Under the pieces are notes generated by a model. The model made no database searches and was not told the origin of the DNA. It worked only from the letters and a program-made list of their open reading frames with translations. Source: a virus. Taken from it: a stretch of DNA of 39,081 bases. How positions within the stretch are numbered: the first letter of the stretch is position 1; each line of letters starts with the position of its first letter. The stretch is taken from IMG/VR virus record IMGVR_UViG_3300042376_001558, positions 1 to 39,081 of that record, one strand, 5' to 3'. Positions 2,571 to 21,980 of the stretch are shown one piece after another. Both the position numbers and the translations under genes were made by a program.

Positions 2571-4448
2571 TTATGCCGCGGCCCCCCAGCTCAGTCCAGT
2601 CTCAACGTCCACTCGGCTGGGCACTTCCAGGCTCACGGCCTTGGCCATGATGTCTGCAGCCTCGCGGGCCTCGTCGCGATTTCTGACCGACAAGGCGATC
2701 TCGTCGTGCACCTGCAGGCGGATGTCAAAGCCGGCCTTGGCCAGCGCCACCATGCCGGCCTTGGTCTGGTCGGCGGCAGACCCCTGGATGAGCCTGTTGA
2801 GGCCCTTGTAGGTGCCTGCACGCTTGATCCGTGAGCCGTATTCAATGATTGCCTGCTCGCGCGGCAGCGCCTTGTTCACGCCCCACTCCATCGGCTCCCA
2901 CAATGGGAAGCGGCATTTGCGGCCCAGGAGCGTACGGATCGCGCCGCCCGAAGCCGGGTGCTCGATGCGCTTCATCACCGCGTCCACGGTGCCCTTGAGG
3001 AAGGGGACCTTGCTGTGGAAGGTGGCGATCAGCTCGCTGGCCTCGTCTAGGGGCAGGTCCAGGCTGTTGGCCAGTTTGGCTTTGCCCATGCCGTACATCA
3101 GCCCCAGGCCGATCGTTTTGGCCGCCTTGCGCTTGATGCCGGCCATGTCCGCGACCATCTGGTGGAAGTCCGTGTCAGGGTTTTCCTTGTACGCGTTGGC
3201 CATCTTCTCGGCCCCCGGCAGGTCCAGCAGTGTGGCATAGTGCACCAGTAAGCGCGGCTCCTGCGAGGAGAAGTCGTTTGCCGCCCAAAGCTGGCCCTCC
3301 TCCGGCAGGAACAAGCCCCGCACCAGCGGGCCGATCACCTCGTGCCGGGCCGGCACCTGCTGCAAGTTGGGGTTGGCCGCTGACAGGCGCCCTGTGACCG
3401 TGCCGCCGTCCTCGTTGCGCATCTGGTTGAAGTGGGTGTGGATGCGCCCGTCCTTGGCGCTGTGGCGCAGGTAGGGCTCCAGGAACGTGCCGTGGGTCTT
3501 GTTGAGCTCCCGGGCCTCCACGATCATCTTGGCCATGGGGTGCTCGTGCGTGTCCAGGAAGCTCTTGGTGAAGCTCGGCGCGCCCTGGGCGGTGCGGGGG
3601 TACTGGATGCCCAGCTTGTCAAAGGCATGGGCAATGCTGGCCGCGGCCCAGATGTCCACCTTCACGCCGGCCTGGTTCTTGATGTACTTGAGGATGTCCT
3701 GCTCCTTGGTGCGCATCTCTTCCATCTTGGTCTCGCACTCAGCGCGATTGAAGCGGATGCCCTTGAGCGTGATGTCCACCAGCACCGGCAGCACCTCGGT
3801 CTCGAGCCGAAAGATGGACTCGACCTCGTCGGTGCGCATGAGGGCCTTAAAGTGGTGCCAGAGCTTGAGCGTCAGCGCAGCGTCCTGCTCCGCATACTCG
3901 CCCACGTGCATGGCCGGCAGCTTCCACAACTCCTTCTTGGCGTGCACGCCAAAGTCCTGCGCCGCCTCCTTCAAGCCCTGCTCGCTCTTGATCTCCTTGA
4001 GGTAGTCAAAGCCCAGGCTGTTCAAGGCGTAGCTGAAGCGGTTCTCGTCGAGCAGCGGCGCTGCCAGCATGGTGTCGTAGATCGTGCCGTTCACCTCGAA
4101 GCCGGAGGCTCTGAGCCAGCCGAGGTCGTAGGCGGCGTTGTGCATGATCTTGTCTGCTGGCGTCGCGAGTACATCTTGCACCCAGCGATCAACAATCCGG
4201 CGATCAAGGTTACCGCCACCGCCATGAGCAACAGGAAAATAGCCTGCCCAACCGTCGACGGCCACAGCGTAGCCCACAATGTAACCGTCGTTGCGAGGCC
4301 AGCCAGGGCCCATTGATTCCATGTTGGGATCACACGTTTCGAGGTCAATTGCAATCTCCTTTGCTTCACTCAGGTTGGGGAACGATTGAGGGGGCACCCA
4401 CTCGGAAATCCGTGGGAACATGGACATGGTCTTGGTGTCGCGCTTCAT
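2571..4448 (-). CDS. polA: Family A DNA polymerase with 3'-5' exonuclease
   Basis: The 625-residue phage replicative polymerase starts at 4448 in an ATGA overlap with the helicase stop, with AAGGA upstream. The exonuclease domain is intact: Exo I D35/E37 (AIDLET), Exo II N104/D108 (HNAAYD), Exo III Y185/D189 (YAEQD). Polymerase motif A is D392-E397-R399 (NDFSSQEPR), motif B spans R440, K444 and Y452, and motif C is H581-D582-E583 (QVHDE). No 5'-nuclease domain is present, as in phage enzymes. Counting from R440/K444/Y452, the residue equivalent to E. coli Phe762 is Leu448. The gene ends the replication operon. Confidence 0.97.
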   Translation of the reverse strand: MKRDTKTMSMFPRISEWVPPQSFPNLSEAKEIAIDLETCDPNMESMGPGWPRNDGYIVGYAVAVDGWAGYFPVAHGGGGNLDRRIVDRWVQDVLATPADKIMHNAAYDLGWLRASGFEVNGTIYDTMLAAPLLDENRFSYALNSLGFDYLKEIKSEQGLKEAAQDFGVHAKKELWKLPAMHVGEYAEQDAALTLKLWHHFKALMRTDEVESIFRLETEVLPVLVDITLKGIRFNRAECETKMEEMRTKEQDILKYIKNQAGVKVDIWAAASIAHAFDKLGIQYPRTAQGAPSFTKSFLDTHEHPMAKMIVEARELNKTHGTFLEPYLRHSAKDGRIHTHFNQMRNEDGGTVTGRLSAANPNLQQVPARHEVIGPLVRGLFLPEEGQLWAANDFSSQEPRLLVHYATLLDLPGAEKMANAYKENPDTDFHQMVADMAGIKRKAAKTIGLGLMYGMGKAKLANSLDLPLDEASELIATFHSKVPFLKGTVDAVMKRIEHPASGGAIRTLLGRKCRFPLWEPMEWGVNKALPREQAIIEYGSRIKRAGTYKGLNRLIQGSAADQTKAGMVALAKAGFDIRLQVHDEIALSVRNRDEAREAADIMAKAVSLEVPSRVDVETGLSWGAAA

Positions 4449-5992
4449 AGTCGAAATCCTTTTTGCTCGTTCTTGGGCAGGACAACATGCAGTGTCTGCT
4501 TGGCGCGGGTGATGCCCACGTACAGCAGCCGGTTGATGTCGTCGGAGTTCTTGTCGTAGTCCTTGGCGAACTTGGTGGACAGGTCCGTGAGCAGCAGGAC
4601 GTTGTCCGCCTCCCCGCCTTTGGCACCGTGGATCGTGGACAGCTTGATTGGCACGTGGCCCGTGAGCCGTGTGTTGCGGCGCAGGAGCGAGATCAGGTAG
4701 TCGCGCCGCTCTTCGCTGATCTTGGTCAGCGCCTTGTGCCAGATTTCTGTGGAAAGAAGCCCATGCTTTTCTTTCAACAGATCGAGCGTGTAGCTGGCGG
4801 TCGTGTCGGCCGTGCGCAGCATCTTGTGGCCGTGCTTGATGCAGCTGCTGTCGAGGTACTTGTAGACGTGCTTGACAACCGGGTAGGGCACCTCGCCGCC
4901 CTTGCGCAGCTTCTCCCAGCCCAGCACCGCGGTGAGCACTGCCTCGCTGACGCTGCGCTGGCCGTGGCGCTCGAACAGCAGGCCCTGGCTCTTGATCCAG
5001 TCGTGCATGTCGGTGAGCATGTAGTTGGTGCTGGCCAGGATGAGCCAGTTGCCGGCGGTGATGTCGACCTGCTGGAAGTCGTTGTAGTAGTGGACGCTGC
5101 CCGCCTCCTCGCGGGCCTTCCAGACCTTGGGCTGGCGCTTGCGGATGCGGTGCACCACGCGGTCGGCCAGGGCGTGCACCTTGGCCGGAACGCGGTAGGA
5201 CTGGTCGAGGACCTTGATCTGGCCCTTGAAGTTCAGGAAGCTGTCGACGTCTGCTCCGGCCCAGGTGTAGACGGCCTGGTCGTCGTCGCCTGCCAGAAAG
5301 CAGCGCTGGGCGCGCAGTGCCAACTGCTCGACCAGCCTCCATTGCAAACGTGAGAGGTCCTGCGCCTCGTCGATGATCAGGGATTCTAGGCGCGGCAGGC
5401 GCTCGGGGAACTGGCAGGCCTGCTCCAGCAGGTCGGTGAAGTCCAGCAGGTTACGGCTGGTCTTGTAGTGACGGTAGGCGCGCTCGACGTACTCGAAGTG
5501 GAACCACTCGATCTCCATCCGCGACTGGTTGTAGTGGGTGCGCAGGTCCAGGCCCTTGATCCGTGCGATGTTGATCTCGTTGAGGATGGGGTTGTCCACC
5601 TTCACAGCAAATTCTTCCTCGCCGCTTTCGATAGCAAGCTCAATGCCGGCTTCCTGGGCAAACTCCTTGTAGTGCTCAGGCGCCATCATGTCCTTGGTGC
5701 TGATGGCCAGGCACCGATACGCCAGGCTGTGCAGCGTGCGAAACCACGGGAAGTCCGTGTCGGGGCTCAGGTGCGGGAACTTCTGGATGGCCCTGTCGCG
5801 CGCTTCTGTGGCCGCTTTCTTGGTGAAGGCGAAGTAGCCGATCTGGCTCGGATGCACTGAGCGGCCCAGCTCTGTCTCTACGATGCTCAAGAGATAGGTT
5901 GTTTTACCTGACCCCAGCTACGGGGGGCCGAAGACTTTTACGATCTTCGGCCCCAACTCCTTCTCAGTTGTGCTCATGTGTTGCTTTTCCAT
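4445..5992 (-). CDS. UvrD/Rep-family SF1 helicase interrupted by an in-frame TAG in Walker A
   Basis: Downstream of the TAG every SF1A motif is present: Ia (YFAFTKKAATEA), Ic (RTLHSLAYR), II (LIIDEAQD), III (AGDDDQAVYTWAGAD), IV (QSYRVP), V (STIHGAKGGEAD) and VI (LLYVGITRAKQ). The reading frame upstream also fits: from ATG 5992 (or 5977) it reads ...KIVKVFGPP, then TAG CTG, then GSGKTTYLL. Removing the six bases 5915-5920 restores a perfect GPPGSGKTT P-loop. As written, translation stops at codon 25. The next possible start (TTG, 5890) would give 481 residues without the P-loop and so no ATPase. Both other frames close within 14 codons, so frameshifting cannot rescue it. Helicase unwinding with the neighbouring polymerase and primase is the expected role. 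Confidence 0.85.
5915..5920 (-). other. Six-base in-frame interruption (TAG CTG) of the helicase P-loop
   Basis: On the minus strand the codons read GGC CCC CCG TAG CTG GGG TCA GGT AAA. Without TAG CTG this is a canonical Walker A motif (GPPGSGK). The insertion is in frame, carries an amber stop, and would also break P-loop spacing if the TAG were decoded as an amino acid. Sequencing or assembly error next to the strong hairpin, a recent mutation, and real biology are all possible. Confidence 0.75.
5924..5954. repeat. Perfect 11-bp inverted repeat with 9-nt loop inside the helicase N-terminus
   Basis: GGGGCCGAAGA (5924-5934) and TCTTCGGCCCC (5944-5954) pair perfectly around the 9-nt loop CTTTTACGA. 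The hairpin is coding (LGPKIVKVFGP) and ends 3 bases before the in-frame TAG on the minus strand. It has no T-run and so is not an intrinsic terminator. In RNA it would be very stable. Confidence 0.85.
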
Positions 5993-11604: not shown

Positions 11605-12302
11605 CACTGATCCCCTGGGCAAACACCGCCGCGTACGAAAAACTCGAAAGAGTAGACACGTCGTCAGGACGTATCTATGTTCTGCCAAATGGTGAACACG
11701 TCCCGTCGGTGACGACCATCCTGGACCGCACCAAGGACAAGACCGCGCTCAAGGAGTGGGCCGATCGTGTGGGTCAGGCCGAGGCTGACAGGCAGAAGGA
11801 CCAGGCCTCCTACGTGGGCACGCACATGCACCTGGCGCTGGAGCACATCCTGAGCAGCGAGCCGTGGTCCGTGAGCCCTGACTGGCTGGCCATGAGGGGC
11901 TACGAGATGGCTTTTCGCCTGGCCAACAGGTACTTTGGCGCAATCTCCGAGATTCACGGCTCGGAGGTGTCACTGCACTACGGGCGCCAGTACGCCGGCA
12001 CGACCGACCTGGTGGCCACGTACCGGGGCAAGCTGGCCATCGTCGACTTCAAGCAGTCGGTCAAGCCCAAGCGGTACGAGTACATCACCGACTACTTCCA
12101 CCAGCTTGCGGCGTACGCGATCGCGCACGACCGCATGTACGACACGCAGATTGACTTCGGCGCTGTGCTGATTGCCGTGCAGGACGGCACGACTCAGGAG
12201 TTCACCACCACTGGCCGTGAATGGGCTGCATTCAAGGCTCAGTGGATGGAGAGGCTCACGTCGGCGGAGCGGGCTGCTGAGCAGCAGCCACCAGCGGGCT
12301 GA
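11601..12302 (+). CDS. PD-(D/E)XK exonuclease, RecB/Cas4-like
   Basis: This 233-residue protein starts in an ATGA overlap with the HNH gene. The nuclease core is legible: GTHMH at 73-77, an acidic strand around E122, D136 in AGTTDLVAT, D149 and K151 in AIVDFKQS (the D-x-K signature) and the downstream QxxxY helix Q168-Y172 (HQLAAYA). This is the RecB-like exonuclease fold used by phages for recombination or DNA processing. Its last 47 nt overlap, on the opposite strand, the end of the large virion gene, a tail-to-tail arrangement. It probably works with the SNF2 ATPase in the same unit. Confidence 0.9.
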   Translation: MTLIPWANTAAYEKLERVDTSSGRIYVLPNGEHVPSVTTILDRTKDKTALKEWADRVGQAEADRQKDQASYVGTHMHLALEHILSSEPWSVSPDWLAMRGYEMAFRLANRYFGAISEIHGSEVSLHYGRQYAGTTDLVATYRGKLAIVDFKQSVKPKRYEYITDYFHQLAAYAIAHDRMYDTQIDFGAVLIAVQDGTTQEFTTTGREWAAFKAQWMERLTSAERAAEQQPPAG

Positions 12303-15300
12303 CCGTGTCGAACGGGAAGAGCTGCTGGAACATCGACCGCGAGCTGGGGTTGGGTGCACCACCACCACCGCCCCCACCGCCTTGCGGCGCCTGGCCCTGC
12401 GGGCCCTTGGGCGGCAGCACGCCAGGCACCCCACGGGTGTTGGGGGCCACGGGCATCAGGCGCAACTGACGCGCTGCTTGGCCCTGCGGGGTGAAGATGG
12501 GCTGGACGGTGTCTCGCAGTTGCGAGGGCCGCGGTTCTTCAGGCGCGATGTAGTTCAGCGCAGGGGTCACCGCGGTACGGCCGACCGACACGCCCATGGC
12601 GCCCAGTTTGTCGAGCAGCCTGTTGGCAATGCTGGTCTGCTGCTTGGCTGTCTTGCCCTTTTCGAGCAGCAACGCCATCAGTTCTGGGTCCTTGGCGGCG
12701 TTCTCCATGACCTGGCGCACGGTCGCATTGGGCAGCGCGTCAAAGATTTGGCGGACAGCCTTGGAGCCGGCCGCGGCGGCGATCAGGGAGTTGCCTCCAG
12801 GGGTGATTGAAGTGCCGAGCTTAGAGCCCACAACCCGAAGCCCAAGCTCAGTGACGGCATCTGCCCCTTCAATGAGGTTGTCGATCGGGATGCCGTTATT
12901 GACCGCCGTCTCAACCTTCACCATCGGATTGATGAGCCGCTTGAGATTTTTGATGTCCGACAGAGACATGGCGCCACTCGCACGCATGATGTTGACGAGC
13001 GACGGCTGCGTACGCGACAGGGGCTCAAAGAGCGCGTCGTTGTAGGCGGAGATGCTGAACTTCCCCGACAGGCCGCCCGCCTTTGTGTAGGCGTAATCGA
13101 GCACCGTTGAACGCAGGCCATCCAGCGCGTCCGGGCCGCCCGCCTTGGCCAGTTGCGTGATCCGGGTAAAGCCCTTGACGGGGTTGCGACTGTTGATGAT
13201 GTCGCCGATGACGCGGGTGGGGTTCTCCGAAGACAGAACCTGCGCAAATGCTGTCTGGCCGAGGAGATTCTTCTCGATAACGCTGTTCTGGCTCTTAACT
13301 TGCAGCAGCAGGTTTTGCGCATGCGTGGCGTCGCGCAGATCGTCCATGATGCCCAGTTTGTTGAGCATGGTCTCGTTCTGCTGAGCAAAGCGCGTGAGCT
13401 TGGCCGTGTTCAACTGCTGGACGTAGGCGTTCTTGGTCTTGTCGTACACGGTCTCAATCGCGTCAGCGGCAAGAAGGCGCAGCACGCGGTTCTGTGCATC
13501 ACGAACTGACACGACGCCTGTATCAGACAGTTCGGCCATGGGCTTGAACATCTGCGCCTGAGGGCTGTTCTTGCCGAACTTGGTCACCGCTTCGTCGTAT
13601 TGCGTGCGGAGAAACTTCACGGCGTCTTCCACCTGCTCCATGCGCTGCATGGTGACGTCGGCATTGGAGCCGAATGCCCGGGAGACCAGAATCTCAGCAG
13701 GAATCTTCTCCGCCCCGCCACGGGCCTTGCCGCCGGTGATGGATGCAGTCTTTGCAAAGGTACGTGTAAAGGTGTCGTTCAGTGCGCTAGAGAAGGCGCG
13801 AGCCTGGTCAAGAATGGGGTTCTTGACCGTGCTCAAGTCGTCAAGCAGAGAGCTGGCAACCTTGGCGTACATCTCCGCGTTGGCTGGGTCATTGCGCGCT
13901 GCCTCCAACAGGTTGGAACGGTAGTTCACAAGCTCAGACAGCGGAACAGGCTTTGGTGTGGCGATAAAGGAGCCCGGCACCTTGCCGGTGTCCAAGAACT
14001 CTTGCGTGTTGCGCCCAAGCTTGTACTTCTGCACGGCAGCCTGGTCCAGGCCAAAGCTGTCCATGATCCTGCGGACCATGTCAGGGACAGCCTGGTCGTA
14101 GACCGCGTCACCGACCTCTGCTGCGCGGGCCAAGAACATGTCGGCCGTCTGCTTTGGCGCAAGGCTCGGTGCCACCAGCTTTACGTCCTGGAAGGTGACG
14201 GTCTTGGGGCGATCCTTGCCGTAGTCCCACCCGCTTTGCACCGTCGTCAGGGTCTTTTTCTGCACCGGCGTCGTCAACTGCCTGATGGCTTCGGTCCAAA
14301 GCTCGCGCTCCGCCATCCGTGCCTGGCTGAGTGCAAGTTCTGTTTCGGTCTTGATGATGTCGCCGATCTGGGCGCGGGCACCGGGCGTATCCTTGGTGAT
14401 CTGCGCAATCTTCATTGCAGAGTTGGCATCGGCCTGTGCCAGGCGCGCGTCCAACGCGGCGCGGAACCTGGTGTCACGAAGCTGAGCCGCCGCCCGCAGT
14501 GCGGCTGGGTTGCCCGTCATGGTCTGCAGGTTTTTGATGAGAAGCTCGTACGCCGCCATCGCGTCCTTGCCCTGCTTTGCCGTCTGCGCGCCAAACTGCT
14601 TGTGGAAGTCCCCCAGCGACTTCTCCAAGTCCATCAGAGTAGGACTGGCCGTCTTTTGCGCCGCGGTCGGAGCAACCCCTTGCGGCAACTGCTGCCGCAG
14701 CGCCGCGATCAGCGCCGCCGGGTCTTCCTTGTTTTTCTCCAAGGCATCGAGCAGGATGTTCACTGCCTTGTCTTCCATCCTGGCGGACTGCGTGGCTTTC
14801 GCCCCGCGAGCGTACTGAAGGCCTTGCTTGGTAAGGTTCACGCCCTCCACCAGCAGCCTGCCTGGAGAGAGAACCCCGGCCGTGACTTCTGCTCCTAGCC
14901 GTGCCCCCGTCTGACCAGGGAAAAACGCTTCAGCAGTGCCGCCCGCTACCCCCATAGCAGCGGCAGTGCCCGCCTCTGTTGCCATGAAAACACCCGGGCT
15001 TCGGCGGGCCGACTCTCCAACCGCGGACAAGAACCGAGAAACGCGGTTGCCCGTCATGTAAGGAATGCCGAATGCCGCTGGCGCAGTCGAAAGGGCAGAG
15101 CCAAAGGTCTTGCCGCCCTCGCGGTAGGGCACCAAATCGTCCCGCGGCACAGCCGGGAACCAGCGGTCAAGCTCCTGGCCAAACAAGTATCCTGCCCCAA
15201 TGCCGAAGAGGGTCGTGGCGACCGGATAGGCAGGTGTGAGCGGGCCCAAGACAGGCAACACGGCAGGTGCCGTTTTTATGCCGAATTGCGCACCCGCCAA

Positions 15301-15579
15301 GGCGCCAGCCGCAACAGGCATGTCACGACCTGCGCCTTGGAGAGTGCCAAGGGCGACCTGTTCCATGCGCTGAGACGCGGTTGGGCGAGCCTCTTCCAAC
15401 AGGGCATCCATCCCGGCGGAAAACTCGGTCGTTGGGGGCTCTTGAAAGGCTTTGAAGGGCTCGCTGATTGCCTTGGGCACGGGCACGCCCAAAACGCGGC
15501 TGCCTCCTTCAAACCTGGTGGGCACGTCCTCAAGAAGAGCATCCATTCCAGAAGCCGTCTTGTCTTTTTCGTCTGCCAT
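12256..15579 (-). CDS. Very large internal virion protein (probable DNA-ejection protein)
   Basis: This 1107-residue protein is Ala/Gln/Lys-rich and mostly helical. Residues about 75-190 include long Gly/Ala hydrophobic segments (AGALAGAQFGIKTAPAVLPV, VATTLFGIGAGYLFGQ). The long central part is charged helical (250-900). The C-terminus has Pro/Gly-rich linkers including eight consecutive Gly. A short motif GMDALLE occurs twice near the N-terminus (11-17 and 56-62). Size, composition and position as the last virion gene match podovirus internal or ejection proteins. No lysozyme or transglycosylase motif is visible. GGAG lies 8 nt before the ATG. Its 3' end overlaps the convergent nuclease gene. 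Confidence 0.82.
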   Translation of the reverse strand: MADEKDKTASGMDALLEDVPTRFEGGSRVLGVPVPKAISEPFKAFQEPPTTEFSAGMDALLEEARPTASQRMEQVALGTLQGAGRDMPVAAGALAGAQFGIKTAPAVLPVLGPLTPAYPVATTLFGIGAGYLFGQELDRWFPAVPRDDLVPYREGGKTFGSALSTAPAAFGIPYMTGNRVSRFLSAVGESARRSPGVFMATEAGTAAAMGVAGGTAEAFFPGQTGARLGAEVTAGVLSPGRLLVEGVNLTKQGLQYARGAKATQSARMEDKAVNILLDALEKNKEDPAALIAALRQQLPQGVAPTAAQKTASPTLMDLEKSLGDFHKQFGAQTAKQGKDAMAAYELLIKNLQTMTGNPAALRAAAQLRDTRFRAALDARLAQADANSAMKIAQITKDTPGARAQIGDIIKTETELALSQARMAERELWTEAIRQLTTPVQKKTLTTVQSGWDYGKDRPKTVTFQDVKLVAPSLAPKQTADMFLARAAEVGDAVYDQAVPDMVRRIMDSFGLDQAAVQKYKLGRNTQEFLDTGKVPGSFIATPKPVPLSELVNYRSNLLEAARNDPANAEMYAKVASSLLDDLSTVKNPILDQARAFSSALNDTFTRTFAKTASITGGKARGGAEKIPAEILVSRAFGSNADVTMQRMEQVEDAVKFLRTQYDEAVTKFGKNSPQAQMFKPMAELSDTGVVSVRDAQNRVLRLLAADAIETVYDKTKNAYVQQLNTAKLTRFAQQNETMLNKLGIMDDLRDATHAQNLLLQVKSQNSVIEKNLLGQTAFAQVLSSENPTRVIGDIINSRNPVKGFTRITQLAKAGGPDALDGLRSTVLDYAYTKAGGLSGKFSISAYNDALFEPLSRTQPSLVNIMRASGAMSLSDIKNLKRLINPMVKVETAVNNGIPIDNLIEGADAVTELGLRVVGSKLGTSITPGGNSLIAAAAGSKAVRQIFDALPNATVRQVMENAAKDPELMALLLEKGKTAKQQTSIANRLLDKLGAMGVSVGRTAVTPALNYIAPEEPRPSQLRDTVQPIFTPQGQAARQLRLMPVAPNTRGVPGVLPPKGPQGQAPQGGGGGGGGAPNPSSRSMFQQLFPFDTVSPLVAAAQQPAPPT

Positions 15580-15591
15580 GCTGCTGCTCCG

Positions 15592-17616
15592 TTACTGAGG
15601 GGCCCTGATGCGCTTCAAGGTCACGCCGTTCACAAGCACCTCTGTGCCGGGAGGATACCTGCGAATGTCTGCCTCAGAATATACAGCCGGAGGAAGCCCA
15701 AGCTGGCCCAGGAACTTCTGGTACTCCATGGCTTTTTCGCGCGCTTTGCCCTTGTCCTCTGGAGAGAGTCCAGAGTCGTCGGCCCCCATCTTCCGGTAGG
15801 ACGCGATCCCCTCGCGCAGGACTTGACCAAGGGCGATGAGACGCGTGCCGTACACGTCAGGGTCAGTCCACGCGCTTGGCTGGATCGCCATGACCTTGTC
15901 GATGTTTTTCTGTTCCCAGACACTGCCGGCCACGCTCTTGAGCATGGCCTCTTTCAAGCGCTCTGCCATAAGTTCAGCGTTCTTGCGTGCCAAAGTTACC
16001 GAGGATGCAGGGTCGCCCAGACCAGGGATGGCCGACACGCCGGCAACCGCCGCCGCGCCCGGGCCCGCCACATCAAACCGGGTGGCCCATAGCGTCATGG
16101 GCCGTGGTCCTTGAGCCGCGGCACCTGCTGCGGGCGCACCTGCAGCCGGAGCCGCCGGAGCCCCAGGCGCAGCGCCGGCGGGCACTGCCGCAGGAGCCGC
16201 GGCACCCGCTTCCGGAGCAGCAGGGCGAGCCCCTGCCGTGGGGTTCATCACCGGTTGCGGCACGGTTGGCAGACCCAGTCTCTTGCGGGCCGCCTCGGCC
16301 TGCGCGACGAAGTCGGGGAGCACGCCCGGCACCTGCACGATGCCTGGGATTCTCGTGACAGGGTCGACCTTGAGCTCTTGCCGTCCCAGTTTGAACTGCA
16401 TGATGGCAGAGGCCATCAGCTTGTCCTCTTCGGGCTTGGTCAGGCCTTGGGCGTACCTCTCCGTGAGGCCGGGCATGTTGACGACGTTCCACTGCCAGTC
16501 GCCCTTGCCCCAGATCGAGTCGCCCATCTTGAGCTTCTGAGCTTGAAGCTTGGCGTCAGCGCGCAGGACGTCCTTGAAGATGTCAGTCTTGCGCTTGAGC
16601 AGTTCGTTGTTCTGGGTGACGACCTGGTCAATGTCCTTCTCGCCCTGTTGAAGGGCCAGGACCTTGATCTGCCGGTCAATCTTGTCCATGGCCTCCAACT
16701 GCCTGCCAATCGCCGTCGGCAGCGTCTTGGTGGCCCCTGCCAGGCGCGAGAAGAAGCTGCCCTTGAGCGGGCGGCCTCCTTCGTCGACGTTGGCCGCAAA
16801 GCCAAAGGCCCGCTGGCCCAGCTCAAACAGCATCTGGGCTTCCGACAGCTTCCTGTCAGCGCCCAACGCCTTCTGGTACTCCGGCAGACGCGCCTCCATG
16901 GCCTTTGTCAGGGTTGGCACAGCGGCAGGGGACCGCGTCAGGAGCTTGTTCATTTCTGCTTTGGCACTGCTGACCATCGCAGGGTCGTACAGCATGTCCT
17001 CGTCTTCCCGAGCGGTACCGTCAGCAGGGGTCACGCCGCTCGGATTAGACCCCGCTTGAAAACGCTGGACGGGGCCGCCGCGGGCCATCTGCACGGGCGG
17101 CGGACCTTCTGCCGGGGGCGCGCCGGCGCCGCCCATCAGCGCCGCAATGCCGCCGTCTTGCGGGGGAGGCGCCATCTCTGCGCCCGGTGTGCCGGGGCCC
17201 ATGGGCGGTGCACCAGGAGGCGGGCCGCCAGGGGCTGCTCCTTGGGGCCCAGGAGGCGCCATCGGGGGCTGTGGCCCTTGGGCCATGGCTTGTGAAGGGG
17301 GCAGCGCGCCAATCCCGCCGCCTTGGGCGAGAATAGGCTGGAGCATCGCGAGCACGGACTCGGGGGTCTCCGTGGCAGCGGCGTAGCCGACCATGTCGGC
17401 CAGTTCGTCGCGGCGCGCGTCGATCGAGCGCATGTCCCCGCGCAGGTTGTTCATGAGGATTTCGGGGGAATCCGGACGGCGTTCGAGGTACTTGCCCTCG
17501 CCCTCATCCTGGTCTTCGCCCTCGCCCTCATCCTCGTCTTCGCTCATGGAGTCCATGAACCCCTGCATGATCCCGACGTTCTCGACGTCGTCGTCGCCCA
17601 TCATTTTTTCTTTCAT
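15592..17616 (-). CDS. Large acidic and Pro/Gly/Ala-rich virion protein
   Basis: The 674-residue product starts at 17616 after AAGGGG. The N-terminus holds a dense acidic tract at about residues 25-41 (EDEDEGEGEDQDEGEG), then a long Pro/Gly/Ala/Met linker (about 97-190). Next comes a short motif MARGGPVQRFQAGS of a kind seen in internal proteins of related podoviruses. A helical domain (about 210-440), a second Ala/Pro linker (about 455-505) and a helical C-terminal domain follow. No enzyme motif is visible. It lies between two other large virion proteins with 12-15 nt gaps, so it is probably a structural or ejected protein. Confidence 0.8.
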   Translation of the reverse strand: MKEKMMGDDDVENVGIMQGFMDSMSEDEDEGEGEDQDEGEGKYLERRPDSPEILMNNLRGDMRSIDARRDELADMVGYAAATETPESVLAMLQPILAQGGGIGALPPSQAMAQGPQPPMAPPGPQGAAPGGPPPGAPPMGPGTPGAEMAPPPQDGGIAALMGGAGAPPAEGPPPVQMARGGPVQRFQAGSNPSGVTPADGTAREDEDMLYDPAMVSSAKAEMNKLLTRSPAAVPTLTKAMEARLPEYQKALGADRKLSEAQMLFELGQRAFGFAANVDEGGRPLKGSFFSRLAGATKTLPTAIGRQLEAMDKIDRQIKVLALQQGEKDIDQVVTQNNELLKRKTDIFKDVLRADAKLQAQKLKMGDSIWGKGDWQWNVVNMPGLTERYAQGLTKPEEDKLMASAIMQFKLGRQELKVDPVTRIPGIVQVPGVLPDFVAQAEAARKRLGLPTVPQPVMNPTAGARPAAPEAGAAAPAAVPAGAAPGAPAAPAAGAPAAGAAAQGPRPMTLWATRFDVAGPGAAAVAGVSAIPGLGDPASSVTLARKNAELMAERLKEAMLKSVAGSVWEQKNIDKVMAIQPSAWTDPDVYGTRLIALGQVLREGIASYRKMGADDSGLSPEDKGKAREKAMEYQKFLGQLGLPPAVYSEADIRRYPPGTEVLVNGVTLKRIRAPQ

Positions 17617-17631
17617 GTTGACCCCTTACCT

Positions 17632-19578
17632 TCAACCAAAAAGTCCCATTTTCTTCGCCCCCGCGGCCGTCGCGAGCGCGCCCAAGCCGACGCCTACGGC
17701 TTGCTGGAACGGGCTGGCAGTCGGCTGGCTGGCCACCTGCGTCGACATCTGGCTCGACGGGGCACCCTTGTAGATGTCCGACAGGAAGCCTGCCTGCTGG
17801 TACGGGGCGTAAACCTTCTGCAACTGGTTGGCGCGCGCGGCGTCTGCCTTCTGCTGATCCAAGGCCTGCTGCGCCTGGCCGACGTTGTACAGGAAGTTGA
17901 TGTCGCCCTGTTGCAGCGCCTGCGCGGTCTGACCCAGCGCGCCTTGTTGCACGCCGAGTTGACCGAGTTGACCGGCCATCTGACCAAGGCCCTGGGCCTG
18001 AGCCTGGCCAATGCCAAACTGCTGCCCGGCCAACTGCCCGATGCCCTGGCCAAGGCCTTGGAACTGCTGGCCCTGCTGGCCGTAGATGTTGGCGATCTGG
18101 CCGCCCATCTGGCCGTACTGGCCCGCCTGCTGCGTCAGGAGGTTGGCGATGTTCTGGTTGATCGCCGCCTCTTGCCCGGCCAGCGCGCCTTGCTGCGAGG
18201 CCATGTTGCCATACTGCTGCCCTGCTTGGAGGAACTGGCCCGCGGCCCCCTGCCCAAGCTGCGCCTGCTGCACGCCCAACTGGCCCAAGCCCTGCCCGGC
18301 GGCAATCTGGTTCTGTGCCAGGTTGCCGTACAGCCCTGCCGCGCCCTGATTGAGGCCCGCTTGCTGCGCTGCAGCAGAAACCTGCCCCTGGCCCGCGGCC
18401 ATGAGTTGCTGGGCGGCATTCTGGCCAAGACCCGCCTGCTGGGCGGCAACCTGTGCTTGCTGCGTGCCAAGCTGGCCAATGCCCTGCCCGGCCTGCAGTT
18501 GGCGCTGTTGCTGCTGCTCAAACGTGGCCTGCGCCTGTGCCTGCGCCTGGGAGTACCCCTGGGACAGGAGGTTGGCAATTGTGCTGGCCTTCTGGTCCAT
18601 CAGATTGCGCTCCATCTCGGCGCGCTGTACACCCTCCCGCTCGCCGCCAAACGCACCCGCACGGACAGCCTGCGCGGCCAGCCCCTGCTGGGCGATCGCG
18701 CCCTGGCGGTTGATCTGGCGCATGGTCTCGTCGATCACCTGCTGCCGGTACGGGTCCATGAAGGACTGCGCAGACGACGGATCGTACGCCTGCTGCGCCC
18801 CGCCGAGCGTGCCGATGCCCTGGCTCAGCGCCTGCTCGGCCTGGCCAAAACCCGGCTGGTTGGTGGCCATTGCAGAGGCCAGAGCCCCGCCGTACATGGC
18901 GTTGACTCCCTGCTCCATTCCGGGGGCCTGCGCCGATCGCGCAGCCATCTGCTGGGCCGTGCTCAGGCCCCCAAGGCCCTGACCAATGGCCTCCGTGGCC
19001 GGCGCAAGGTTGGCCTGGCTGGACTGGGCCGCCATGTTCTGGGCCGTGGTCAGCGATCCGAGGCCCCTGCTGATGTCCTGGTAGGCCGGGTTGAACCGGG
19101 CGGACGTGTCGGAGGCCAAGGCCCGCTGGCCTGCCGTGCCCAGGTAGCCAAGCCCCTGGGAGATTGGGGCAAGGCCCGCTGCCATGTTGGCAGTGGCGCC
19201 CCCAGCTTGCTGCATGGCCCGCTGTGCGTCGGTGAACTGCGCCCGGGTGTCGGCGCCGCGCAGGATGTCAGCGGCCTCGGCCGTGGTGCCATAGGCCCCG
19301 CCCAGTGCCTGGTTGGCCGCCGTCATATAGGGGGTGAAGGCCCCCACCCCCAGGGCCGTTGCCGCGTTAATCGCGGTTGTCTGAGGGCCAGTAAACCCCT
19401 CTACTTGATAGGCGGGGAGCTGCTCGCCCAGCGGAGTACGCTGACCGATGACGTTGCCCTGGTCATCGATGATGTTGTTGTAGGCGAGTGCTTGGGCCTG
19501 CTGAAGGAGCTTGACCTTGTACGCCTCGATCTTCGGGTCTTCCCGGATAATTTGTTGGGTGACGGTCTGGTCTGACAT
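17632..19578 (-). CDS. Gln/Gly/Ala-rich repetitive internal virion protein
   Basis: This is a 648-residue protein. A conserved segment near residues 280-325 (DPYRQQVIDETMRQINRQGA, then RAGAFGGEREGVQRAEMERN) is followed by about 230 residues of degenerate repeats of the form GQGxGQLGxQQAQ, dominated by Gln, Gly and Ala and lacking Cys. This is typical of long, rod-like or ejected helical proteins. The C-terminus closes with ATAAGAKKMGLFG, an ending I associate with related podovirus internal proteins. It starts at 19578, almost abutting the upstream gene (3-nt gap). No catalytic motif is visible. Confidence 0.83.
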   Translation of the reverse strand: MSDQTVTQQIIREDPKIEAYKVKLLQQAQALAYNNIIDDQGNVIGQRTPLGEQLPAYQVEGFTGPQTTAINAATALGVGAFTPYMTAANQALGGAYGTTAEAADILRGADTRAQFTDAQRAMQQAGGATANMAAGLAPISQGLGYLGTAGQRALASDTSARFNPAYQDISRGLGSLTTAQNMAAQSSQANLAPATEAIGQGLGGLSTAQQMAARSAQAPGMEQGVNAMYGGALASAMATNQPGFGQAEQALSQGIGTLGGAQQAYDPSSAQSFMDPYRQQVIDETMRQINRQGAIAQQGLAAQAVRAGAFGGEREGVQRAEMERNLMDQKASTIANLLSQGYSQAQAQAQATFEQQQQRQLQAGQGIGQLGTQQAQVAAQQAGLGQNAAQQLMAAGQGQVSAAAQQAGLNQGAAGLYGNLAQNQIAAGQGLGQLGVQQAQLGQGAAGQFLQAGQQYGNMASQQGALAGQEAAINQNIANLLTQQAGQYGQMGGQIANIYGQQGQQFQGLGQGIGQLAGQQFGIGQAQAQGLGQMAGQLGQLGVQQGALGQTAQALQQGDINFLYNVGQAQQALDQQKADAARANQLQKVYAPYQQAGFLSDIYKGAPSSQMSTQVASQPTASPFQQAVGVGLGALATAAGAKKMGLFG

Positions 19579-19581
19579 GGG

Positions 19582-21876
19582 TTACGCCTTTACAGCTCCG
19601 CCTTCGAGCTTTTTCATGAGTTTGTACATGCGCGCAGCTCCCTTGCGTCGGCTGCCGCCCCCAGCGTTGCGCACCGCCCTGGCGGTGAAGACAAACTCGC
19701 CGTCCGACAGCATGGCCGGAATGGAGTCCGAAGTGCCGGTGCCCGGGCCGTTGATCGGGCCCGTCTTGCGCGGAAACTCCGTCGGCGTCGGCTGGCCGCC
19801 CTTTGCGAGCCTCTGCGGCTGACCGTACAACATGGGCACTCCGTACAGGCCCGCCATGTTGTAGGGCTGCGGTATCCCCGCGGGGCTACGGCTGAAACCT
19901 CCGGGGGCCGAGATTCCTGGGGCGCCCATTGGCGCCGGGGCATACCCAGAAGTTGGGATATCCACCATGGGCGGGCGCACCATAGGCGGCCTATAGCCAG
20001 AGTCCAGGCCCCCAGTGAACATACTGGGGTTATCCCTCATGTAGTCGATGCCGGTGTAGTCCCGATTGAAGGCTGGATTCGGGTCAGCAGGCGACGACTT
20101 CGTGCCCCCAAAAGCGGCCACGGTGCCGTAAGTCAGCGCAGCCGCCGGGCCATACTGGCGCAGGAGACTGACGTCGCTGGGCAGGCCCGGGCGGCTCGGC
20201 GAGATGTTCTCGCTGTAGAAGTCCTTGGCGTCTTGGGCCATGCGATCAAAAAAGCCCGGAGCATTTGTCGGAACAGGTGCCGATGCACTTGGAGCCGGTG
20301 CTCCCGGGGTCGCAGCGCTCGGAGCCGCTGCACTTGGCGCCGTTGCCCCCGGGGCCGCAGGCGCGGTACCCGCTGGCGCAACGCCAGGTCCAGCGGTAGG
20401 ATTAAATTCCAGCGGCGTCTGGGTGAACGTGCTCATTGGACTGGAGGTTGGCATCGAATAAGACCTGGCACCGCCGCCCATGTCGTAACTGTACTGGCCT
20501 GTGATCCTGCCAGGGTACGTCTCCTGCAGGCGTGCGAGGCGACCAATATCGCCTTGTTGCGCTGCCTGCTGCGCCATGACTTGAGGGTAGTCAGCTATCC
20601 CGCCAGGGACATCAGGTATGAACCTGGCCGCCTGAGCAGTGCCGCCATAGTTCAGCGACTCCACCGGAGACATGAGGTCTGCAGCGGTCCCGATAGGACC
20701 TGGAGCACCTGGTTGAGCGGCGTTTTGCGCCGCGATCTCGCCGCTCCTGAAGCCCTCTTGAGCTCTTTGGCGTATGTCTTCCGCGGTCACGCGACCTTCG
20801 TCCAACAGGCCAGTGTTGTTTCGCACGCCGGCCATAGCTGCTGCGGAAGCGCCGGACATCAGGCCCATGCGCAAGGCATCCTTTGTGCTCATGCCGCCAA
20901 GTTTGCCCACGCCAGCGCCAATGACGCCGGTAGCCAGCCCGGTATTCAAGGCAGAACCCGCAACGCCCGGCAGGTAATTGCCGACTGCCGCCATGGGGTT
21001 GGTGCCCATGACCGTCCCGCCACCACCGATGTAGCCCATGGCGCCGGAGATCAGAGCGTCCTTCATTGAGCCGCCGCCAAGGAGTGTGGCCCCCGCGCTG
21101 CCCAGGGCCGCCGCTCCGGCGGTAGTACTGGCCAGGCCAATGCCTGCTGGCCCGAGGACCGTGGCCAATGCAACGGTCAGCAGGATTCGACCGACGGGGG
21201 ACTTGGCGACCTTCTTGACGACGTTGACAACCGACTTGACAACGCCCTTGATTGCCTTGGCAACCTTCTTCAAGAAGAACTCAGGCATGCCCGTGTTCGG
21301 GTTGATCGTGCCTGCACCACCACGGCTCTTCAGAAGCTGCGCCTCCTCTGGGGTGATGTGCGCCAGCATGCTATCGCCACGGCGCCCCTGAGAGGCCAGA
21401 TACGAGGCAACATCGGCCAGGCCGCCTTGGGCCATGGGCATCGCTCCCATGCCCTCCATCGGAGGCTCCTCCATCATGGGGGCTTGCGCCCCCTGGATAG
21501 AGGTCATCTTCAACTCGTTGAGCACCGTCAGGACAGCGCCGAGGAACTCGGGGTCGTACTCTTCAGGGATGTCTTCGGGGTCGACAACGTCGTCGCGGAT
21601 GAGCTCCTCGCGCATCTGCTTGTAACGGTCAGGGCGTTGGGAGAGCTGCTCAAACACCTCGATGAGCTGCTCAAGCTCTGACGGGGTAAGCTCCAGCTCC
21701 TGCATGTTCTCACGCAGGGCCTGGCGGAGCATGTCCTGCTCCTCCGGCCGGGCCATCCCAAGGGCGGTTTGCGCAGCGTCGTACGCGTCAAAACTGGTCA
21801 CCGCAGGCATCTCAGATGCCTGGTCGTCCCGCATGCCTGCCCCTTGGGGCAGCGCCATGATGCCTTCATTCGCCAT
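19582..21876 (-). CDS. Large internal/tail virion protein with membrane-active segment
   Basis: The 764-residue protein has an acidic helical N-terminus (about 30-125), then the phage-conserved segment RRGDSMLAHITPEEAQLLKS ... INPNTGMPEFF (165-201). A Lys-rich amphipathic helix (203-226) and a hydrophobic stretch (230-249) that could enter membranes come next, followed by Gly/Ala/Pro-rich repeats. A widespread virion-protein C-terminal motif ends it (GTSDSIPAMLSDGEFVFTAR, then a Lys/Arg-rich tail). The start at 21876 uses GGAAAGGAC, which can pair with a complementary upstream sequence. It is the first gene of the large internal-protein group. A role in genome delivery is inferred. Confidence 0.83.
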   Translation of the reverse strand: MANEGIMALPQGAGMRDDQASEMPAVTSFDAYDAAQTALGMARPEEQDMLRQALRENMQELELTPSELEQLIEVFEQLSQRPDRYKQMREELIRDDVVDPEDIPEEYDPEFLGAVLTVLNELKMTSIQGAQAPMMEEPPMEGMGAMPMAQGGLADVASYLASQGRRGDSMLAHITPEEAQLLKSRGGAGTINPNTGMPEFFLKKVAKAIKGVVKSVVNVVKKVAKSPVGRILLTVALATVLGPAGIGLASTTAGAAALGSAGATLLGGGSMKDALISGAMGYIGGGGTVMGTNPMAAVGNYLPGVAGSALNTGLATGVIGAGVGKLGGMSTKDALRMGLMSGASAAAMAGVRNNTGLLDEGRVTAEDIRQRAQEGFRSGEIAAQNAAQPGAPGPIGTAADLMSPVESLNYGGTAQAARFIPDVPGGIADYPQVMAQQAAQQGDIGRLARLQETYPGRITGQYSYDMGGGARSYSMPTSSPMSTFTQTPLEFNPTAGPGVAPAGTAPAAPGATAPSAAAPSAATPGAPAPSASAPVPTNAPGFFDRMAQDAKDFYSENISPSRPGLPSDVSLLRQYGPAAALTYGTVAAFGGTKSSPADPNPAFNRDYTGIDYMRDNPSMFTGGLDSGYRPPMVRPPMVDIPTSGYAPAPMGAPGISAPGGFSRSPAGIPQPYNMAGLYGVPMLYGQPQRLAKGGQPTPTEFPRKTGPINGPGTGTSDSIPAMLSDGEFVFTARAVRNAGGGSRRKGAARMYKLMKKLEGGAVKA

Positions 21877-21880
21877 AGTT

Positions 21881-21935
21881 GTCCTTTCCGAGTGTGGCCA
21901 GTGGCCCTGCATGGGGCCGCGCGCCTGGAAAGGAC
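21881..21935 (-). promoter_or_regulatory. Leader hairpin that can sequester the ribosome binding site
   Basis: On the minus strand GTCCTTTCC (21935-21927) is the exact complement of GGAAAGGAC (21889-21881), which is the ribosome site 4 nt before the ATG at 21876. An inner stem GGCCC/GGGCC (loop CATGCA) lies between them and would bring the arms together. Folding would hide the ribosome site. This looks like translational control, possibly delaying synthesis of the internal proteins. Confidence 0.55.
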
Positions 21936-21950
21936 GCGAGATTTGACCCA

Positions 21951-21980
21951 ATTATCCGATATAGCTGGCCCGGTTGTCTA
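21951..21980 (-). promoter_or_regulatory. Candidate sigma-70-type promoter for the internal-protein genes
   Basis: TAGACA (21980-21975, -35, one mismatch to TTGACA) and GATAAT (21956-21951, -10, one mismatch to TATAAT) are separated by 18 nt on the minus strand. The gap is intergenic and upstream of the gene starting at 21876, leaving a leader of about 70 nt. It is the best promoter match I found in the virion half. Confidence 0.5.

Follow-up and report, generated by a model that had tools for sequence, protein, structure and literature searches.

Hairpin-associated stop codons in the Walker A motif of phage P-loop NTPases as a probable class of in-frame ribosomal hops

RESULTS

An in-frame stop codon within the Walker A motif of a phage helicase. 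The window analyzed here, the whole 39,081-nucleotide stretch of viral DNA in IMG/VR record IMGVR_UViG_3300042376_001558, carries a helicase gene whose Walker A motif is split by a stop codon and one sense codon. Judged from sequence comparison, this insert is probably a programmed ribosomal stop-hop, that is, an in-frame bypass of 6 nt. A total of 74 distinct elements of this kind were found at 104 places on IMG/VR phage contigs, always at the same Walker A position and always with a sense codon, a stop, a re-pairable codon, and resumption of the same frame. Their conserved anatomy, their recurrence in groups of P-loop NTPases, their codon rules, their hairpin, and the purifying selection on the genes that carry them are described below. 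We consider it probable that they form a widespread natural class of hairpin-driven in-frame stop hops in phages, which originated or spread repeatedly among different P-loop NTPases (helicases, polynucleotide kinases, and an RNA ligase-kinase) with the use of tRNA-Pro and, once, tRNA-Ala, and which are placed in Walker A so that only a hopping ribosome would make active enzyme.

The helicase frame lies on the minus strand of the window. It is opened by an ATG at 5992, followed by a second in-frame ATG at 5977, and reads ...KELGPKIVKVFGPP up to a TAG at 5920-5918 and a CTG at 5917-5915, after which it continues with GSGKTTYLLSIVE... for 489 codons to a TGA at 4447-4445. The Walker A motif therefore reads GPP-TAG-CTG-GSGKTT. 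The initial annotation had described exactly this arrangement, an amber codon and a CTG in an otherwise open helicase frame, with six bases dividing a perfect P-loop into GPP and GSGKTT, and the sequence confirms both statements. The resumed frame (4445-5914) encodes a helicase body of the UvrD/Rep-type SF1A (PF00580, 4e-32; UvrD_C [PF13361], 7e-10) that matches phrog_1967 (1e-79). Both the N- and C-terminal UvrD domains are found, and Walker A is whole only when the insert is skipped. Its neighbors are a primase gene on the upstream side and, downstream, a DNA polymerase gene. A plain frameshift, which had already been dismissed in the initial annotation, was rejected, as both alternative frames shut within about 10 codons past the TAG. 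Genetic code 15, in which TAG is reassigned, was also rejected; TAA, TAG, and TGA all occur at the site among the elements, and the large ORFs of the window are open under table 11.

The leader ORF MSTTEKELGPKIVKVFGPP (5977-5921, minus strand) comprises 19 codons and encodes the N terminus through the first half of Walker A, with the ATG at 5992 as an alternative start. Leader and start are conserved in other stop-bearing relatives (MNTTYEELGPKIVKVFGPP and MNTSDKEMGPKIVKVFGPP). The hairpin that had been noted at the site is present and extends from 5954 to 5924, with the 5' arm GGGGCCGAAGAT (5954-5943), the loop CGTAAAA (5942-5936), and the 3' arm GTCTTCGGCCCC (5935-5924) forming a stem of 12 bp whose last pair is U-G. 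The 3' arm also codes for V-F-G-P, with GTC and GGC codons that differ from those of nonstop relatives. Just 5' of the hairpin is an AAGGAG (5962-5957) that is frequent in helicase-type elements and looks like a Shine-Dalgarno sequence where the start codon falls within the hairpin (L090, L099, and L058). The stem ends directly at the take-off codon CCG (5923-5921), the second Pro of GPP, which is followed by the stop TAG (5920-5918; TAA or TGA in relatives) and the landing codon CTG (5917-5915; CCN or CTN in helicase elements where the bases were free to vary). An element of identical sequence is present in a second contig, L105. No Rfam family was matched near the helicase gene, and a search for tRNA genes in the window found none, hence no suppressor tRNA there.

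Recurrence in helicases and other P-loop NTPases. A protein search without selection for stops gathered 80 viral loci, most of them with an uninterrupted GPPGSGKTT. Six were stop-bearing, with the insert at exactly the same place: L005 (CCT-TAG-CTT), L042 (CCT-TAA-CCG), L053 (CCT-TAA-CCA), L057 (CCA-TGA-CCA), L058 (CCG-TGA-CCA), and L061 (CCG-TGA-CCA). All six display a stop and a CYN codon together with a hairpin. A sense-codon insert at this site was found in none of the 80 loci, and the Walker A spacing GxxxxGK[ST] is exact in all nonstop relatives.

When viral contigs were scanned at the DNA level for GPP-stop-CNN-GxGKT, all 43 stretches recovered were genuine helicase Walker A motifs with an open frame downstream, and the landing codon was CCN or CTN in 43/43, although the scan left those two bases free. 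Helicase scans of viral contigs for a stop followed by A, G, or T yielded two chance matches and no genuine one, and the GPP-form pattern in bacterial and archaeal genomes gave five sites, all due to chance. The independent contigs from the first two pattern scans alone represent about 41 metagenome data sets, a recurrence well beyond what chance would give. After relaxation of the scan to GxP, with GKS allowed, the same element was found in further NTPases with unrelated sequences. These include AAA_33 ATPases (phrog_2071), a T4-type polynucleotide kinase with a phosphatase domain (L201; phrog_505), an RNA ligase-kinase-phosphoesterase (L175; phrog_8238), and another AAA_33 kinase (L182; phrog_6931); a Dda-like helicase (L216; phrog_325, 1e-73) also carries the element. 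Four chance matches without a significant hairpin and without a matching family (L134, L144, L179, and L200) were dropped by hand. Because GxGK[T/S] had to be intact to match the patterns, its preservation is in part a product of ascertainment; the scans beyond GPP helicases fixed CYN beforehand, so that the codon rule was freely tested in helicases only. Neither bias affects the stop-bearing loci of the unselected protein search.

A scan of the loci gathered here for a hairpin and X-stop-Y, without a P-loop requirement, gave coherent matches at Walker A only; this apparent restriction may be a search bias, as the public collection was scanned in P-loop contexts only. All elements are metagenomic. 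Isolated or deposited phages have P-loops without the insert at the 11 loci examined, and DNA searches with the element regions returned nothing relevant. No earlier report of such an element was found in the literature outside bioRxiv. Two gaps in deposited records were encountered. The record of Providencia phage Kokobel2 (L131:2001-2816) contains at its very end an unannotated helicase start, FGPPGTGKST, likely because the linear record was cut within the gene, and that of Pseudomonas phage XD2 (L164:601-966) contains an unannotated polynucleotide-kinase-like ATPase with RGLPGSGKS and no stop.

A hairpin that abuts the take-off codon. Among the 72 elements with enough upstream sequence, 66 have a hairpin with z < -2 (mononucleotide shuffles), and in 71 the stem ends 0 to 1 nt before the take-off codon. 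Only 1 of 48 nonstop relatives has a z value below -2, and the mean z is -0.1 in this group versus -5.0 in stop-bearing helicases. Between the take-off codon and 60 nt downstream, no structure was detected (mean z, -0.08). The hairpin is weak in a few elements (L113, L118, L173, L175, and L182). Its position tracks the stop and not the start codon; start codons can be found upstream of it, in an arm, or in the loop.

Stem sequences are diverse, with 23 distinct 8-nt 3' arms. The upstream sequence paired strongly with the arm of the same element in 90% of cases; when the arm was taken from a dissimilar element instead, strong pairing was seen in 10%, and 0/48 nonstop relatives showed it. In the kinase family, four pairs show compensatory changes on both sides, and the covariation score was reached by no shuffle. 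Covariation in the helicase clade is not significant; there the 3' arm, which encodes protein, is almost unchanged, and the stem varies little. GTC and GGC are used in helicase elements where the stem needs them, unlike in nonstop relatives.

Codon rules and a prediction for alanine. The constant anatomy of the elements is a hairpin, CCN, a stop, C[C/U]N, and then GGN. The take-off codons of the 74 elements are CCG (33), CCT (31), CCA (9), and GCC (1), the stops are TGA (28), TAA (27), and TAG (19), and the landing codons are CTA (24), CCA (19), CCG (11), CTG (10), CTT (6), CCT (3), and GTA (1). TGG never occurs as the skipped codon in genuine matches of the scans that allowed it. Take-off and landing codons have the same first base and C or U at the second, and they are fully identical in 10/74 elements. 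Their third bases correlate (permutation P = 0.001, with related sequences that are not independent); when CCA is the take-off codon, the landing codon always ends in A.

Pairing of a Pro anticodon (NGG) is possible with CCN and, via a middle G-U pair, with CUN but should not be expected with CAN or CGN, and landing codons of the latter two types are absent from the 43 helicase matches although they were allowed. Many landing codons are CUN, for which the middle-position G-U is the only way to pair with a Pro anticodon, and this counts against a hop. A third-base C at take-off or landing occurs in 0/73 Pro elements, while CCC is the equivalent codon in 17/51 nonstop helicases (Fisher P = 4.5e-5 for helicase elements). 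Weak pairing with CCC and a tendency to shift are properties of tRNA-Pro(UGG) (PMC4519876), and the absence of third-base C suggests that this tRNA is the one involved.

A rule set by re-pairing of the take-off tRNA predicts GYN as the landing codon for an Ala take-off codon. Three matches were returned when GxA-stop-GYN-GxGKT was scanned for, two due to chance and one genuine. The genuine match, L216, reads YVTIAGYA-TAG-GTA-GTGKTT with GCC as take-off codon, and its hairpin (z, -5.8) abuts this codon. In this single Ala case, the third base is mismatched at landing.

Selection and exchange. Between pairs of stop-bearing genes, the helicase body displays pN/pS values of 0.08 to 0.33 and the downstream frame is open, indicating that the full-length protein is under selection. 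This agrees with the view of the initial annotation that the helicase gene is functional. A tree built from 69 helicases requires nine or more changes of the stop state. The closest relative of the window, L001, shares 98% protein identity and has no stop. The DNA flanks of the two are mostly 95 to 100% identical, and the swapped stretch starts where the upstream gene ends and reaches about helicase codon 10 (compared at window positions 5977-5885). The pairs L042/L040 and L058/L060 are separated by similar swaps. The element appears to behave as an exchangeable cassette, because the start region is replaced between near-identical flanks. Separately, one stop-bearing helicase of 961 codons (L117:2385-5267, minus strand) has a match to an intein splicing domain (PF14890; E = 1e-7) that is below Pfam's curated cutoff and lies inside the helicase body; all that this match may indicate is that the helicase gene family attracts such elements.

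DISCUSSION

We infer from these observations that ribosomes hop over the insert and that the hairpin serves as the motor. A ribosome would read the short leader to Gly-Pro-Pro and pause there, its P site occupied by CCG with peptidyl-tRNA-Pro and its A site by UAG. Ribosomes move slowly through tandem proline and tend to drop off (PMC5009743), so that Pro-Pro before a stop should favor the pause. The hairpin would be melted by passage of the ribosome and could refold only as the mRNA emerges behind it, so that refolding would pull the message through and drive the six-base step. The peptidyl-tRNA would leave CCG and re-pair six bases on at CUG (CYN in general), and decoding would restart at GGG (Gly), leaving GPPGSGKTT as a continuous P-loop in the product. 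A ribosome that terminated, or that read through and added two residues, would make an inactive protein, and active enzyme would therefore arise from the hop alone. This raises the possibility that the element regulates (gates) enzyme activity. It may also shield the conserved P-loop site from homing endonucleases by altering the target, as has been proposed for gene 60.

Readthrough or suppression of the stop by a near-cognate or suppressor tRNA, which would place two extra residues in the P-loop, is unlikely. It would likewise proceed in frame to one long protein, and C after a stop makes for a leaky context; this context is present at the elements, where it is also explained by the landing codon. 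However, the two residues would break a spacing that all nonstop relatives keep exactly, all three stops are used at the site, the landing codon is matched to the anticodon used at take-off (Pro to CYN and, in one case, Ala to GYN) and not to an amino acid, and the window lacks a suppressor tRNA. Classical readthrough stimulators lie 3', whereas no 3' structure was seen here. Among the options offered in the initial annotation, suppressed or read-through translation came closest, in that recoding is supported, but ordinary readthrough leaves the two extra residues and the codon rules unexplained. The interpretation given there stands only in part, as the six-base hop, which does fit the codon rules, was not among its options.

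Loss of the six bases at the nucleic acid level before translation, by transcriptional slippage or hairpin-guided excision of RNA or DNA, is very unlikely. RNA polymerase or a processing enzyme could respond to a hairpin beside these bases, but the skipped triplet is always an in-frame stop, which is meaningless to a polymerase, the CYN wobble and third-base rules fit tRNA re-pairing, and we know of no such process that removes 6 nt. It is highly improbable, too, that no full-length enzyme is made, with termination after GPP freeing the leader and a P-loop-less helicase starting downstream to act as a regulator or dominant negative. Such a product had been suggested from the TTG at 5890, which is also the start that gene callers would choose, but this codon is not conserved in stop-bearing relatives (L042 and L005 differ), the GxGK[ST] half is kept after the insert, the closest relatives start at MNITKVFGPPGSGKTT, and the CYN codon and the tie between hairpin and stop would have no explanation. 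As for a sequencing or assembly artifact or a recent null mutation, both of which had been considered for the window, hairpins can provoke sequencing errors; the recurrence in about 41 data sets, with three stops and in several protein families, together with the conserved hairpin and the strong purifying selection, reduces the likelihood of either nearly to zero.

Stop-hopping as proposed here has partial precedents. In T4 gene 60, completion of a 5' stem-loop pulls the mRNA and starts bypass (PMC5009743). The phage elements share with gene 60 a take-off codon followed at once by a stop, a (here presumed) downstream resumption after re-pairing of peptidyl-tRNA, a 5' stem-loop near take-off that is thought to pull the mRNA (PMC5009743 and PMC11194080), and an insert tolerated in an ATPase subunit of phage DNA metabolism. 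They differ in that gene 60 has a 50-nt gap between identical GGA codons and a take-off stem-loop over the stop, whereas the phage elements skip 6 nt in frame with C[C/U]N as landing codon and have no structure covering the stop. Gene 60 also has a 46-residue nascent peptide, for which the phage leaders are too short; a long nascent-peptide signal (about 25 to 30 residues from the P site) is absent from the elements, whose leaders are as short as about 9 codons (MIYKIFGPP in L090). Unlike gene 60, the phage elements recur widely in different NTPases.

In one synthetic stop hop, the hopR tRNA-Val reads GUG-UAA-GUU. In synthetic stop hops in Escherichia coli (Weiss 1987, as summarized in PMC5009743), nine bases of codon-stop-cognate codon yield one amino acid, two residues fewer than readthrough, as proposed here for the phage elements. 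The synthetic hops involve reporter constructs or mutant tRNAs, whereas the phage elements are conserved, apparently programmed by a hairpin, and located at an active site. The byp elements of Magnusiomyces are mitochondrial and apparently independent of mRNA context (PMC5009743); the phage elements, in contrast, are linked to a hairpin and keep the frame, and in the loci examined they occur at Walker A only. A 2016 review stated that no natural in-frame stop hopping was known (PMC5009743).

T4 gene 60 and yeast mitochondria were the main basis of what was known about bypassing, and a large natural set of candidates can now be added. With so simple an anatomy (hairpin, codon, stop, and codon), the putative hop can be tested in a standard reporter. 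Such phage helicases and kinases are missed or truncated by current gene calling and would resemble pseudogenes or P-loop-less proteins. In the window, the start that gene callers would pick (TTG 5890) gives a gene at 4445-5890 that has lost the P-loop, and the annotations of other such phages may be likewise truncated. Elsewhere in the window, three long consecutive minus-strand ORFs (12256-19578; 1107, 674, and 648 aa) have no PHROG match and adjoin a tape-measure-like gene at 19582-21951.
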